Shown one piece after another: positions 34 through 61,757 of a stretch of 64,000 bases of DNA; the first letter of the stretch is position 1, and the number at the start of each line of letters is the position of its first letter. A program made the translations under genes and the position numbers. Where the stretch lies: assembly GCA_027036135.1 (NCBI GenBank), contig JALVSY010000016.1, positions 434,001 to 498,000 of the forward strand, given 5' to 3'. The notes beneath the pieces were generated by a model. It ran no database searches. It saw only the letters and a list, made by a program, of their open reading frames with translations, and had not been told where the DNA came from. This stretch comes from Pyrodictiaceae archaeon. GTDB lineage: Archaea; Thermoproteota; Thermoprotei_A; Sulfolobales; Pyrodictiaceae.

Positions 34-918
34 TTGGCTCGGGCGATTAGTGCGAGGCTCGTATTCCTAGCCGACGAGGCTGCCGGGTACGAGGCACGTG
101 GCTTGCTTGGCCAGCACGGTCTCTCGGTCCTTGTCGAGACGGTTGATGAGGGGGGCCAGGTTCACCGAGTATTGTTTGACACTGGGCAGTACGGGGGAGC
201 AGTTGTTCATAACGCTAGGCTCCTCGGCCTAGACCTCGCTAGCGTAGAGGCTATTGCGCTTAGTCATCACCACTATGACCATACTGGTGGGCTAAAGGAA
301 GTCCTGGAGGCAATAGGTAAGAGCACACCGGTAATCGGGCATGTCGACTTGTTTAAGCCCTCCATATACATAAGGGATAACAACATTAGGCTAGACATAG
401 GCATTCCCTACAACCGTGGCGAGCTCGAGGCCCTCGGAGCCAAGTTCCTGCTGCTCCGCCGCAGCATAGAGGTGGCTCCGGGTATCTATTGGCTTGGCGA
501 GATTCCCCGCGAGTACCCCGAGCTCGCCCCAGGGCTTCCCGGGAACTACACGATAAGTTATGATGGCGAACTAGTGCCTCATACCCTGCGAGATGATACG
601 GGCCTCGCAATCATGGTTGAGGGCTATGGGCTCATAGTTATAGGGGGTTGTAGCCATAGTGGCATAGTAAACATAGCTGCATATGCATCCAGGCTGCTAA
701 ACGAGGCACCCAGGCTAGTTACTGGCGGCTTCCACATGGTATCCATGAACGAGGAGAAGATAAGGGAGGCGGCGAGGGCGCTACGCGAGCTAGGTGTTGA
801 GGAGGTTCATACCGGGCACTGTACCGGGCTAAGAGCAGAGTGCATGTTACGCGAGATGTACCGGGACAAGTTCAACAAGATACATACAGGGTACGTGATA
901 GAGATTAAGGGCGAATAA
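34..918 (+). CDS. MBL-fold metallohydrolase (dihydropterin/RFA-P synthase-like)
   Basis: ORF with HHHYDHTGG metal-binding motif and GGFHM/GHCTG C-terminal motifs; TTG start. Confidence 0.85.
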   Translation: MARAISARLVFLADEAAGYEARGLLGQHGLSVLVETVDEGGQVHRVLFDTGQYGGAVVHNARLLGLDLASVEAIALSHHHYDHTGGLKEVLEAIGKSTPVIGHVDLFKPSIYIRDNNIRLDIGIPYNRGELEALGAKFLLLRRSIEVAPGIYWLGEIPREYPELAPGLPGNYTISYDGELVPHTLRDDTGLAIMVEGYGLIVIGGCSHSGIVNIAAYASRLLNEAPRLVTGGFHMVSMNEEKIREAARALRELGVEEVHTGHCTGLRAECMLREMYRDKFNKIHTGYVIEIKGE

Positions 919-34509: not shown

Positions 34510-34660
34510 TATGTAGAGGATTGGCTCTATTCTTATTCTTCCCGTTATGGGTCACCGTTTAGTAGACTTTGTGTGATATTTTTAGTTGTTTTTTGGCCGT
34601 AAGTGTCCGGGTACGTGTTTTTCTATTGTCTCTTGTTCTTGCTTTAAGCGGTGGCGCCTA

Positions 34661-35626
34661 GTGAAGGCATCACATCTTGCCCTCGCAGTGATCATCGCTG
34701 CCATTATAGTAACAGGCACGGTCATAGCAATCCATAAAGCCGAGCATAACGTCCACCCAGTAGGCATAAGGCTAGGCGTTGAGTTTAACACCCATGCGAC
34801 AGCTGCGTGGATAGCTCTATCAGAGCACCTCTTCTCCCAGCACGGGCTCAGAGTAGAAAAAGTAATCAAGTTCAGGACGGGCCCCGAGCTTGCAGCAGCA
34901 TTTGCCCGCGGAGACATAGATGCTGCTTGGGCATGCCTAGCACCAATAGTAAAAATGATAGACAAAGGAGCCAAGCTCTACATAGTTGAAGCAGCCCATT
35001 ACTATGGATACGGGTGCGTAGGTAGCCCGCACATAAAGAGCATAGAGGATCTCAAGAAGCTTGGCAGGGAGCCAGTCATAGCAATACCTGGGAAAGCTAG
35101 TCAAGTCCACCCGATGCTTCTCCTAGCTGAGGAGAAATACGGGTTCCACGCAAAAATCGTCTACATAAAGCCTCCAGCAATACTCTCTGCTGTCCTAAAA
35201 GGCTCTGTTGACGCAGCATGCATCCCGGAGCCTCTGCTAAGCGTTGCTCTCAACAAGGGACTTCACCTATTGTTCCTTGCCCAGCAAGTGTGGCCGAGCA
35301 TGCCAGGCAGCTACCTGGTAGTATCGCAACGATTCCTCAAAGAGCACCCGGAGGCGGTTTGTAAGCTGGCAGAGGTAAACGAGGAGGCTACAAGCCTCAT
35401 CTACAAGGACCCCGGGAAAGCAGTAGACATTGACGCGAAGATGCTAGGCCTACCAGCCTCGGTTATAAACGAGAGCCTAAAGCACCTCTACTTCACGACA
35501 AGGCTCAACGTGGCAGAGATGCAGAAAATGGTCGATATCATGTACGAGCACGGCCTAATAAGGCACGACATAAACATTTCGAAATACATAGTGAACCTTG
35601 GTAAGCTCTGCGGAAAGCACAGCTGA
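34661..35626 (+). CDS. ABC transporter substrate-binding protein (NMT1/TauA/SsuA-like)
   Basis: N-terminal TM, GIRLGVEFNTHATAAWIALSEHLFSQHGL...FARGDIDAAW; GTG start chosen. Confidence 0.82.
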   Translation: MKASHLALAVIIAAIIVTGTVIAIHKAEHNVHPVGIRLGVEFNTHATAAWIALSEHLFSQHGLRVEKVIKFRTGPELAAAFARGDIDAAWACLAPIVKMIDKGAKLYIVEAAHYYGYGCVGSPHIKSIEDLKKLGREPVIAIPGKASQVHPMLLLAEEKYGFHAKIVYIKPPAILSAVLKGSVDAACIPEPLLSVALNKGLHLLFLAQQVWPSMPGSYLVVSQRFLKEHPEAVCKLAEVNEEATSLIYKDPGKAVDIDAKMLGLPASVINESLKHLYFTTRLNVAEMQKMVDIMYEHGLIRHDINISKYIVNLGKLCGKHS

Positions 35627-35650
35627 GAAACCGAGAGCATTGCGTCAAGG

Positions 35651-36457
35651 GTGCTCGGCGTCTTGAGGAACCGGGTTAACACAGCACTGGCTTACATCGC
35701 GCTAATAGGTATCTGGCAACTCATAGCCAGCGCTGCAAGAACCCCCTGGATAGTAGGGCCAATCGATATTCTCCGCGCCCTCCTCAACGAGGCCTTCTTG
35801 TCTAGGCTTGTAGCCGCATACACCGATACACTAGTCCGGTCCCTTGCGGGGTTTACTGGCGGCCTTGTTCTCGGCGTCTCGCTTGGGGTATTAACGGGTC
35901 TTCTCTCCATGAAGCTGGGCGGTGTATTTGAGAGCTTAGCAGCATTTGCTGCCTCTGTACCAGGTGTAGCTTGGATACCCCTGCTCATAGCGGTTATGGG
36001 GATTAATTCCTTCCTCTTACCCGTAACGGCTAGCATACTTGCCTCGTTCCCGCCGATATTCTACCAAATCTACTCGGCTCTAAGGAGTATTGATCCAAGC
36101 GAGGTAGAGGTAGCCGTAACACTTGGGGCTGATAACCAGTTCCTCTGGAGGACAATAATAATGCCGAAGCTAATGGCTTCTCTCTTCCCGGCGTTAAAGA
36201 TTGAGGCTGTGCTTGCCTGGAAAATAGTATTCGCTGTGGAAATGATAGCGGCGACCAGCGGGCTAGGCTACCTAGCCATGATGTACGCCGACCTACTAGA
36301 TGTACCACACGTCGCAGTACTGGTGATAGTGCTCACGCTGAGCGTGGCCCTAATGGTGAAACTAGTCTCACTCTTAGAGAAACTCGTACTAGGCAAACTA
36401 GGCCTAGGTGTAGAGCAATGGGGCTCCATATACGTATACGCCGGGCAGGGATACTAA
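35651..36457 (+). CDS. ABC transporter permease (TauC/SsuC-like)
   Basis: Permease loop EVEVAVTLGADNQFLWRTIIMPKLMASLFPALK. Confidence 0.88.
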   Translation: MLGVLRNRVNTALAYIALIGIWQLIASAARTPWIVGPIDILRALLNEAFLSRLVAAYTDTLVRSLAGFTGGLVLGVSLGVLTGLLSMKLGGVFESLAAFAASVPGVAWIPLLIAVMGINSFLLPVTASILASFPPIFYQIYSALRSIDPSEVEVAVTLGADNQFLWRTIIMPKLMASLFPALKIEAVLAWKIVFAVEMIAATSGLGYLAMMYADLLDVPHVAVLVIVLTLSVALMVKLVSLLEKLVLGKLGLGVEQWGSIYVYAGQGY

Positions 36458-37086
36458 GAGACATAAGCCTAGACCTTCCCAGTTGCGGGGTCATACTAGT
36501 ACTTGGGCCCAATGGCGCCGGGAAAACAACGCTACTCAAGACAATAGCGGGCGTGGTAAAAGCAGACGCAGAAATAATACTGAATAGTACACCGTTGCAT
36601 AAGCTCCCGCCAAGCAAGAGAATGATAGGCTATGTGCCACAGAACCTGGCACTATTCCGCCACATGAGCGTCTACGACAACATAGCCTACGGGCTAAGAG
36701 CCCGCCGCTTACCCGAGAACCTTGTCGAGGAACGGGTAAGGGAGATCGCGGCCAGGCTAGGCATACAGCACCTCCTAGCAAGAATGCCATGGCAACTAAG
36801 CGGGGGAGAGCAGCAAAGAGTAGCACTCGCAAGAGCCCTAGTACTAGACACAAAGCTCCTCCTACTCGACGAGGCGTTCGACCACATAGATGAGGAGACG
36901 CGAAGCGAGCTAATGAGGCTAGTAAGTAGCGAGGCAGAGCAGAGAAAAATACCAGTGATAATGGTCACGCATCACCCAAGCGAAGCCAGGAAACACATGA
37001 ACGTAAAGGCAATAGTAAAGCTACGGGATGGAAGACTAGTATCCGTGGAGAACCTCGTGGAGGCAGCAGCCCTAGTAAGAGTCTAA
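36418..37086 (+). CDS. ABC transporter ATP-binding protein
   Basis: GPNGAGKTT, LSGGEQQRVALARAL, LLLLDEAFDHID. Confidence 0.93.
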   Translation: MGLHIRIRRAGILRDISLDLPSCGVILVLGPNGAGKTTLLKTIAGVVKADAEIILNSTPLHKLPPSKRMIGYVPQNLALFRHMSVYDNIAYGLRARRLPENLVEERVREIAARLGIQHLLARMPWQLSGGEQQRVALARALVLDTKLLLLDEAFDHIDEETRSELMRLVSSEAEQRKIPVIMVTHHPSEARKHMNVKAIVKLRDGRLVSVENLVEAAALVRV

Positions 37087-37174: not shown

Positions 37175-38233
37175 TTACTCTTGTGTCATATTGACTATTG
37201 CGTGTGGGTTGAATACTCGGAGCGTTATTGTCTCCCATGCTCTGAACTTGTGCCCGGTCTCCTCTAGCCCTATGTAGTCTACCTTGGTGTCGATGCCTAC
37301 TACTATGTCGAGCCCGGTCTTCTCTGCCGAGACCAGTATTGCTTGCTCCTGCGACAAGAACGGCGTCTTTACTACCTTGGCTAGCTTCTCTATCCTGGAT
37401 AACTCCATTACGCCAGTACGCTCGTGTACTGCTAGTAGCTTAGCGTAGCGCTGCGGGGAGACCAGTAGGACATAGGGGCCCCTAAACCCCTCTGCCTCGA
37501 GCCCGGCTACTGCGCGGGCAACATCATCTACCGCCTCTCCCGGCCTCTCCCACGAACCTATACTCGTTCTCAGCGAGTCCTTTGCCTCAAGCAGCCTGGT
37601 TACTAGGAGCTTCTCCTCCTCGGCTACGAAGCGCTTAGCAGCGTACTCCACCAAGGGCTCCAAGGGCTCTCCTAGGCGCTCGTGCCGGTTGAGCAGCCTC
37701 TGGGGCACAACGAGCTCTATTGCTACCTCTCGTAGCGGTATAACGGTCTCGGATTCAACGCCTACACCGGCCTCGCTGAAGGTCACACTAGGCGCGACAA
37801 CGTAGTCTATTCCGGGCCCGAGAACAGTGACAGGGAACACCCTCCTAATACTCCTCGCCGAGTCCGCAACCCCTCTAAAGAGCCTAGAAATCTTCTCCTC
37901 GAATCCCTCCTCGCTGGGAGGATCGGCAGGGTCATCCCCGCCACTCTTCTTCTCTGTTAGCTCTACTACCTCTTCGGCTCCTTTCCGGAGTTCCTCAGCC
38001 TGCTCTGGGTCAAGCCTCTTCAATAGCTCGAGGAACTCGCCGACATGCGTCTTCTCCTCCCGGGCAACATCGGCGAAGACCTTCTTAGCGTCCTCCAAGG
38101 GGGCTCGCTCAGCGACTTGTAGGTAGAAGCTAATAGCATCAAGCTCAGCTATAACAGCTAGGCGCAGGGCATCGATGAGGTCCTTCTCGGAGAGCTTATC
38201 CTTAGAAAGCTCCAAGGGATGGCGAGCAAACAC
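37175..38233 (-). CDS. encapsulin shell protein with N-terminal fused ferritin-like/rubrerythrin-type domain
   Basis: N-terminal AELDAISFYLQVAERAPLEDAKKVFADVAREEKTHVGEFL; C-terminal family 1 encapsulin (linocin M18-like) pattern GPYVLLVSPQRYAKLLAVHERTG...VGIDTKVDYIG...FRAWETITLRVFNPHAIVNM. Confidence 0.85.
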   Translation of the reverse strand: MFARHPLELSKDKLSEKDLIDALRLAVIAELDAISFYLQVAERAPLEDAKKVFADVAREEKTHVGEFLELLKRLDPEQAEELRKGAEEVVELTEKKSGGDDPADPPSEEGFEEKISRLFRGVADSARSIRRVFPVTVLGPGIDYVVAPSVTFSEAGVGVESETVIPLREVAIELVVPQRLLNRHERLGEPLEPLVEYAAKRFVAEEEKLLVTRLLEAKDSLRTSIGSWERPGEAVDDVARAVAGLEAEGFRGPYVLLVSPQRYAKLLAVHERTGVMELSRIEKLAKVVKTPFLSQEQAILVSAEKTGLDIVVGIDTKVDYIGLEETGHKFRAWETITLRVFNPHAIVNMTQE

Positions 38234-38321
38234 TCAGAGAGCACCTCCTCTCTGGTATCTGGGAGAGGTGCCCAGAGGGATAAGACTCCTACCACGAAGA
38301 GAATAGAGACCTCTACGGTAA

Positions 38322-38873
38322 ATGGGAGGCGCTAAACACTTGTCCGCACGTCTACGACGACTAGGAGCTACGAGTACTGCGAAGACCGCTGTGGAGCGGT
38401 GGCTAAGCGAGGCAAACCTGTGGCTCGAGGAGTTCTACGCCGAGCGTACCAAGTCCCCTAGGCAGAGCTTGAACAAGGTGTTTACAGCGTGGAAGGCCCT
38501 AGTAGCGGTACTACCCCAGCTAGCCTCAGAGCTAGACCCCGTGCTCCGGGAAGAGCTTCGCCGAAGAGGCTTCACCGAGGACGGTGCCGTTAAGGTCACT
38601 ACCGCTACTGCGCCTAAGATAAGCCACCTAGTCGCCGAGAAAGCCGAGCAGGAACCGGTGCGCGAGCTAGCCCAGAGCCTCCTCAGCCTCCACAAAGGCG
38701 CCTACATACTGCACACGGCCTTCTACGAGGGCCCAGAGCACGCAGGGTTCACTGGAACCGAGGAGGCCCTCGAAACAGCGATAAGGCTCGCCGAGAAGCT
38801 CCAAGAAGTAGCGGGGCGGCTCCAAGACCTTGTTCGAAACCCTAGACTGAAACGGGACATAACGAACTCCTAG
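38322..38873 (+). CDS. PaREP1/HEPN-like protein
   Basis: Helical ORF with FTAWKALVAVL...LLSLHKGAYILHTAFYEGP pattern like PaREP1 families. Confidence 0.55.
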   Translation: MGGAKHLSARLRRLGATSTAKTAVERWLSEANLWLEEFYAERTKSPRQSLNKVFTAWKALVAVLPQLASELDPVLREELRRRGFTEDGAVKVTTATAPKISHLVAEKAEQEPVRELAQSLLSLHKGAYILHTAFYEGPEHAGFTGTEEALETAIRLAEKLQEVAGRLQDLVRNPRLKRDITNS

Positions 38874-60887: not shown

Positions 60888-61757
60888 TTAGGATGTGTTT
60901 ATAGAGCGAAGATACTTAGCAATGGACTTTGCCAATTCCTCGTGGTACTTTTCATCACTGATTATTAGCTCCACAAGGCTGCTCACAATTTCTCTTCGTT
61001 CATCGGTGAAGAGCAGCGTTATGAGCGGAAACATTGTCCTCGAGTACCGCTCCTCTCCAGCTACATGTTCAAGTCCTACAAGTTTTTCAAAGTACTCAGC
61101 CACGTGCACAGCACTATCCTTAATCTCGTTGAGCTTCCTCTCGAGTTCCTTGACGAGCTCAGCGTACTCCCTAACATGGACATCACTGCATCGTAAAACC
61201 GCTTCCTCGAACCCTTCTGGAACCTCTAGGCCAAGCTCCCTTGCAAGCATGAGCACGACGCTGGCATGTTGCTCACTCTCCTTACTGATATAGAGCGCTG
61301 TACCCGCTACAAGGGGGTCGTTAACGGCCTTAGCTAGTAGCTCGTAAGCCCTTACAGCAATAATCTCCGCCGCGTACGTGCACGAGAAGATTTCCAAGTA
61401 GTCTTGCGGCCTTATAACAGCCTCCTCCCTGGGCGTAATGCCTAGCAATCTATATAGTTCCTCCCACCTCTCCTCCAGAATAAGCTTGGCTAGCACCCTT
61501 GGCTTTGTCTCTAACCCAAATATCTCTACCAAGGGCCTTGCAACGAAGATACAGATAGCCGCATCGAGGCCAGGGCCCTCGCCGTAGATGCTTTTTAGGA
61601 GAGACAATATAGCTGGTAAGCGCATCTCAGCTAAGAGCTCTACATAAGTCTTATTGCAACATCTTTTCGCAGCTGTGTTTAGAAGCGCTAGAGCTCCAGG
61701 GGCTAGCTTCTTCAGAGCTTTCTCTGCTTTCGCTAGAAGTTCATCCTGCAACGACAT
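60888..61757 (-). CDS. putative ferritin-like helical protein
   Basis: SCTYAAEIIAVRAYELLAKAVNDPLVAGTALYISKESEQHASVVLMLARELG and a second ELIISDEKYHEELAKSI segment. Confidence 0.5.
   Translation of the reverse strand: MSLQDELLAKAEKALKKLAPGALALLNTAAKRCCNKTYVELLAEMRLPAILSLLKSIYGEGPGLDAAICIFVARPLVEIFGLETKPRVLAKLILEERWEELYRLLGITPREEAVIRPQDYLEIFSCTYAAEIIAVRAYELLAKAVNDPLVAGTALYISKESEQHASVVLMLARELGLEVPEGFEEAVLRCSDVHVREYAELVKELERKLNEIKDSAVHVAEYFEKLVGLEHVAGEERYSRTMFPLITLLFTDERREIVSSLVELIISDEKYHEELAKSIAKYLRSINTS

Follow-up and report, generated by a model that had tools for sequence, protein, structure and literature searches.

The locus examined here raises the question of whether a single gene in a Pyrodictium-like crenarchaeon provides both the shell and the ferritin-like cargo of an iron compartment. 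The window (i.e., the whole stretch of DNA analyzed) comprises 64,000 nt from a Pyrodictiaceae archaeon (assembly GCA_027036135.1, contig JALVSY010000016.1, positions 434,001–498,000 of the forward strand). The gene of interest is an intact ORF in a single frame (Table 1), and it very probably encodes a Flp-fusion family 1 encapsulin that would work as a self-loading ferroxidase/iron compartment, the latter partly by analogy. This family assignment is based on a full-length match to a known particle, the two Pfam domains, the encap_f1 profile, the HK97 fold of the predicted structure, and the conservation of the ferroxidase residues.

Table 1. Features of the encapsulin locus, with positions given in window coordinates and residue numbers referring to the encapsulin protein.
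Feature	Position	Strand	Remarks
Flp-fusion family 1 encapsulin gene	37175..38233	-	352 aa; GTG start; stop 37175-37177
EncFtn (encapsulated ferritin-like) domain, residues 1-95	37949..38233	-	Pfam, NCBIfam, PDB 5n5e, model
Helices of EncFtn domain, residues 16-43, 47-74, 76-97			AlphaFold model
E30, equivalent of Glu32 of R. rubrum EncFtn	38144..38146	-	42/42 in alignment; PMC11202242
Y37, equivalent of Tyr39, beside ferroxidase center	38123..38125	-	41/42 in alignment; PMC11202242
D55-H63 (DVAREEKTH), with E60 and H63 matching ligands Glu62 and His65	38045..38071	-	archaeal-fusion form DxxxEExA(T)H
Linker with DPP motif, residues 96-111	37901..37948	-	low confidence, pLDDT <50 at 94-108
HK97-fold encapsulin shell, residues 112-352	37178..37900	-	Linocin_M18, encap_f1, Foldseek
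Shine-Dalgarno GGAGGTG	38242..38248	-	8 nt 5' of start codon
Possible TATA-like CTTAT	38280..38284	-	about 47 nt 5' of start codon; weak candidate
ABC transporter	34586-37086	+	convergent, downstream of encapsulin gene
Divergent gene, weak PaREP1 match	38322-38873	+	starts 88 nt upstream of encapsulin gene

An earlier note made from the DNA letters had claimed that this ORF joins a ferritin-like N-terminal domain to a family 1 encapsulin shell and that the virus-like particle of Pyrococcus furiosus has the same arrangement. Both claims agree with the database searches. For the shell, Pfam Linocin_M18 matches residues 116–337 (E = 2.2e-28; 99.6 bits against a cut-off of 24.3), and the protein passes the NCBIfam equivalog encap_f1 (108.3 bits against a cut-off of 100). 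For the N-terminal domain, Pfam Rubrerythrin matches residues 21–94 (7.8e-10) and Pfam EncFtn-like matches residues 15–84 (2.6e-6), while NCBIfam EncB_fam scores 77.5 bits, under its cut-off of 90. One ORF encodes the ferritin-like domain followed by the shell, which is the Flp-fusion layout. In a phmmer search against the PDB, one entry matches the whole protein, namely the P. furiosus virus-like particle 2e0z (E = 3.8e-46; residues 4–348 on 4–343), and the isolated P. furiosus ferritin domain 5n5e is matched with E = 3.8e-22.

The AlphaFold2 model, built from 40 homologues, has a mean pLDDT of 87.3, with values below 50 only at residues 1–7 and 94–108 and values of mostly 79–98 in the shell domain. 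Residues 16–97 are modeled as a helical hairpin plus a third helix, and residues 111–352 as the mixed helices and strands of a shell. The HK97 fold in residues ~110–352, on which the earlier note had staked its reading, is present in this prediction (pLDDT 87). All of the Foldseek matches listed from the PDB (best 50) are encapsulins, and among them 2e0z has the top target-normalized TM-score (0.90; rmsd 2.2 Å over 242 columns with 26% identity). Because AlphaFold may have had 2e0z in its training, this fit represents consistency rather than independent proof.

The ferroxidase site offers a further line of evidence. In the EncFtn of R. rubrum, the ferroxidase ligands are Glu32, Glu62, and His65, with Tyr39 nearby, and fusion-type EncFtns have DxxxEE62xA(T)H65 together with Glu68 (PMC11202242). 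Mutations of the R. rubrum ligands have been reported, and the P. furiosus EncFtn domain is reported to act as a ferroxidase (PMC11202242). The window protein has the matching residues, each numbered two lower (E30, Y37, D55, E59, E60, T62, H63, and E66), including the archaeal-fusion motif with its upstream Glu and Tyr. The earlier note had given this upstream pair as ExxxY, which is wrong; the actual motif is E30-x6-Y37 (ELDAISFY). Among the 42 fused sequences aligned, E30, E59, and E66 are invariant, and Y37, D55, E60, and H63 are each found in 41, the exception being L020 from a Sulfolobaceae genome. This fused encapsulin (L020:1459-2493 in G039) no longer has the ferroxidase residues (K replaces E60 and Q replaces H63), and its ferritin domain is no longer detected by Pfam; other Sulfolobaceae copies examined retain the residues. 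The linker, which has 16 aa in the window protein and is predicted to be disordered there, varies in length among the fused sequences, and its P105 is found in 36 of the 42 sequences. A DPP motif (residues 100–110, window ~37904–37936) is kept in most crenarchaeal fused linkers and is absent in P. furiosus.

Most relatives open at the same position with [FLM][SA]KHP or a close variant, and the start codon and Shine-Dalgarno sequence are also kept in a 91%-identical relative (L070). Farther upstream, CTTATC is common to the three same-genus upstream regions and is a weak candidate for a TATA-like element. Comparison with the 91%-identical same-genus copy yields dN of 0.041 and dS of 0.279 (dN/dS ~0.15); purifying selection thus acts on this gene, and it constrains both domains more than it does the linker.

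Genes of the shell family have a patchy distribution. They are found in 71 of the 398 genomes of the phylum and in three of the five genomes of the genus, the two without being 86% and 60% complete; within the family, they are missing from four 99%-complete genomes (G005, G007, G011, and G014). Where the gene occurs, the fused layout is the standard crenarchaeal form and is not rare. Excluding the window's own locus, 41 of the 48 Thermoproteota loci have a single-frame fusion, and the other seven consist of one with an in-frame TAG (L022), three that are short or cut, and three that lack the ferritin domain. The TAG (L022/L053 in G015, a Pyrodictiaceae MAG) is located in the ferritin domain of an otherwise intact gene and may be a sequencing error or a real lesion. 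Copies in Thermococcales and Archaeoglobales are also fused, whereas the best euryarchaeal shell matches are unfused proteins of mostly 266–273 aa. The shell tree places the window gene together with the Pyrodictiaceae copies (five rows, 100%), nested within a larger group of crenarchaeal fused shells (97%), and the crenarchaeal origin proposed earlier stands. The AU test does not reject a topology in which all fused shells form one clade (p-AU 0.571); the tree contains no bacterial shells, and the free quick tree needed two changes. L191 looks like an exception, but it is a fused gene with a broken reading frame, and an EncFtn ORF lies immediately upstream of it. These two results make one origin of the fusion compatible with the data, for a tree without bacterial shells.

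By analogy with relatives, the shell domains would assemble into an icosahedral HK97-type capsid, probably with T=3 as in P. furiosus, and the EncFtn domain would end up inside the particle because it is fused to the shell N-terminus. Two EncFtn chains would pair across a two-fold interface, where E30, E60, and H63 would build a di-iron ferroxidase center, and such pairs would build decameric rings. The center would oxidize Fe(II), and the ferric product would be held in the lumen. One monocistronic gene may in this way let the cell both store iron and protect itself from Fenton chemistry, with a targeting peptide being unneeded. We infer the assembly, T number, ring formation, ferroxidase activity, iron storage, and physiological role from relatives, and homology likewise points to a role in iron oxidation, storage, and stress. 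A total of 180 fused EncFtn domains would give 18 decamers, which is at odds with T=3 symmetry, as is also so for P. furiosus (PMC11202242).

The genomic context is that of a lone gene. The encapsulin gene stands alone on its strand with no cargo gene alongside, and the genome has one encapsulin and one EncFtn domain, with no second copy of either found. A Pfam scan of the neighboring ORFs found no iron gene adjoining it. A classical ferritin of 167 aa is encoded on another contig of this genome (L164), so the encapsulin is not the sole iron store. Ferritin and encapsulin are not mentioned in a paper on iron reduction in Pyrodictium delaneyi (PMC8105010).

This separate ferritin is one reason to consider that the particle may serve chiefly for peroxide/oxygen detoxification in a rubrerythrin-like manner, or to store a different metal, and would then hold little iron. 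The match of the N-terminal domain to Pfam Rubrerythrin is consistent with such a role, as is the frequent location of fused genes elsewhere beside rubrerythrins (PMC8346489). However, the conserved residues, among them the fusion-type E66, match those of EncFtn ferroxidases, the protein has no rubredoxin domain, and no rubrerythrin gene lies beside the window copy. A function mainly in detoxification or other-metal storage is unlikely, albeit the best of the alternatives, and an iron compartment is the preferred reading. Elsewhere in the window, a 289-aa protein (60888–61757, minus strand) has a rubrerythrin-like match in residues 193–278 and is not a standard rubrerythrin.

Much less probable is that the adjacent ABC transporter feeds the compartment and works together with the encapsulin as one unit. 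The two lie close together in each of the three same-genus genomes with an encapsulin gene, but the transporter block is not beside it in G013, which belongs to another genus of the same family, and its orientation is convergent in the window and in L054 and tandem in G004. Moreover, its solute-binding protein and permease resemble aliphatic-sulfonate/NMT1 types rather than iron types. The PaREP1-like neighbor reported in the earlier note does have a match to that family, but its score of 21.8 bits is below the Pfam cut-off of 24.4. An 84%-identical copy of this gene is found beside the same-genus encapsulin L054 and was not seen in G004. Since synteny is limited to the genus and orientation is not kept, a functional link to either neighbor was rejected and none is claimed, in line with the earlier note, which regarded both as having no established link to the compartment.

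It is highly improbable that the gene is a captured provirus capsid gene rather than part of a cellular compartment: the shell shares the HK97 fold with tailed-virus capsids, and reference 36 of PMC8346489 indicates by its title that the Sulfolobus solfataricus relative was originally presented as a fossil provirus, but the protein has no match in phage records, plasmid records, or PHROGs, viral-contig matches cover the ferritin domain only and lack the shell, no viral families were recognized among the neighboring ORFs scanned, terminase, portal, and protease genes were not seen beside the gene and its close relatives, and the gene is retained with its ferroxidase domain under purifying selection. 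A viral or mobile-element origin was rejected, as the phage, plasmid, PHROG, and viral-contig searches gave no fused or shell relative. Among the viral contigs, L151:3849-6635 is an ORF of 929 aa in which residues 379–461 are EncFtn-like, and others (L150 and L152–L162) encode EncFtn-like proteins of ~100–190 aa.

EncFtn-like proteins also occur on their own. The genome scan found 34 short ones (94–179 aa) with no shell in their loci, including L113:1843-2196, L115, L117, L124, L126, and others up to L149, with proteins of ~100 aa. Identity between archaeal standalone proteins and the EncFtn domain of the window protein reaches 61%. Among 16 genomes searched, a Linocin_M18 match is absent in all 13 that carry a standalone form, most of these being incomplete MAGs; in Nitrospirota, where standalone EncFtn also occurs, shell genes were found in 0 of 148 genomes. 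In a tree of 95 columns, the standalone proteins interleave with the fused N-terminal domains, with at least seven changes forced by starred branches, and the two forms are separated in none of 200 bootstrap trees. Furthermore, L113 terminates in GDPPRQNSDAE, which resembles a fused linker, and no shell follows it. The interleaving, the 13 carriers with no shell gene, and this linker remnant together suggest repeated shell loss as the simplest reading, although 95 columns are few. That archaeal fused encapsulins repeatedly lost the shell and left free EncFtn rings acting outside any compartment is a tentative proposal, with somewhat less than an even chance of being right. Alternatively, standalone forms may have come first and then been fused or exchanged several times. 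If shells were indeed repeatedly lost, this would imply that a ferroxidase ring can benefit a cell even when no compartment surrounds it.

The architecture of the window gene has been described as a 'Flp-fusion' family 1 encapsulin found 'mostly in the phylum Crenarchaeota' (PMC8346489), and a 2024 review lists fusion-FLPs as one of four classes (PMC11202242). The gene therefore adds one more example and no new kind, and knowledge of encapsulins is unchanged by it. Its value lies in being a clean single-gene example, from a hyperthermophile, of what is probably a self-loading iron compartment, with a well-sampled alignment of fused forms, and it may be useful for working out how a T=3 shell could accommodate 180 fused EncFtn domains.

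Among known systems, short standalone EncFtn-like proteins (s-FLP, e.g., NE0167 of Nitrosomonas europaea, 3k6c) share the EncFtn domain with the window protein but have no shell domain, and a search of 13 genomes carrying standalone forms found no shell gene. Classical family 1 encapsulins whose Flp cargo is a separate protein, such as those of Thermotoga maritima and Myxococcus xanthus, share the HK97 shell and the EncFtn-type ferroxidase. Crenarchaeal Flp-fusion family 1 encapsulins, including that of Sulfolobus solfataricus (PMC8346489), share both architecture and phylum, and the window gene is placed among them in the shell tree, whereas Sulfolobaceae shells form a separate long branch. 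The P. furiosus particle (PF1192, PFC_05175; 2e0z, 5n5e), which like that of S. solfataricus is reported to be T=3 (PMC8346489), differs in its 26% shell identity, in lacking the DPP linker of the window protein, and in its host, which is not crenarchaeal; nevertheless, it resembles the window protein in domain order, full-length match, ferroxidase motif, and shell fold (TM-score 0.90).
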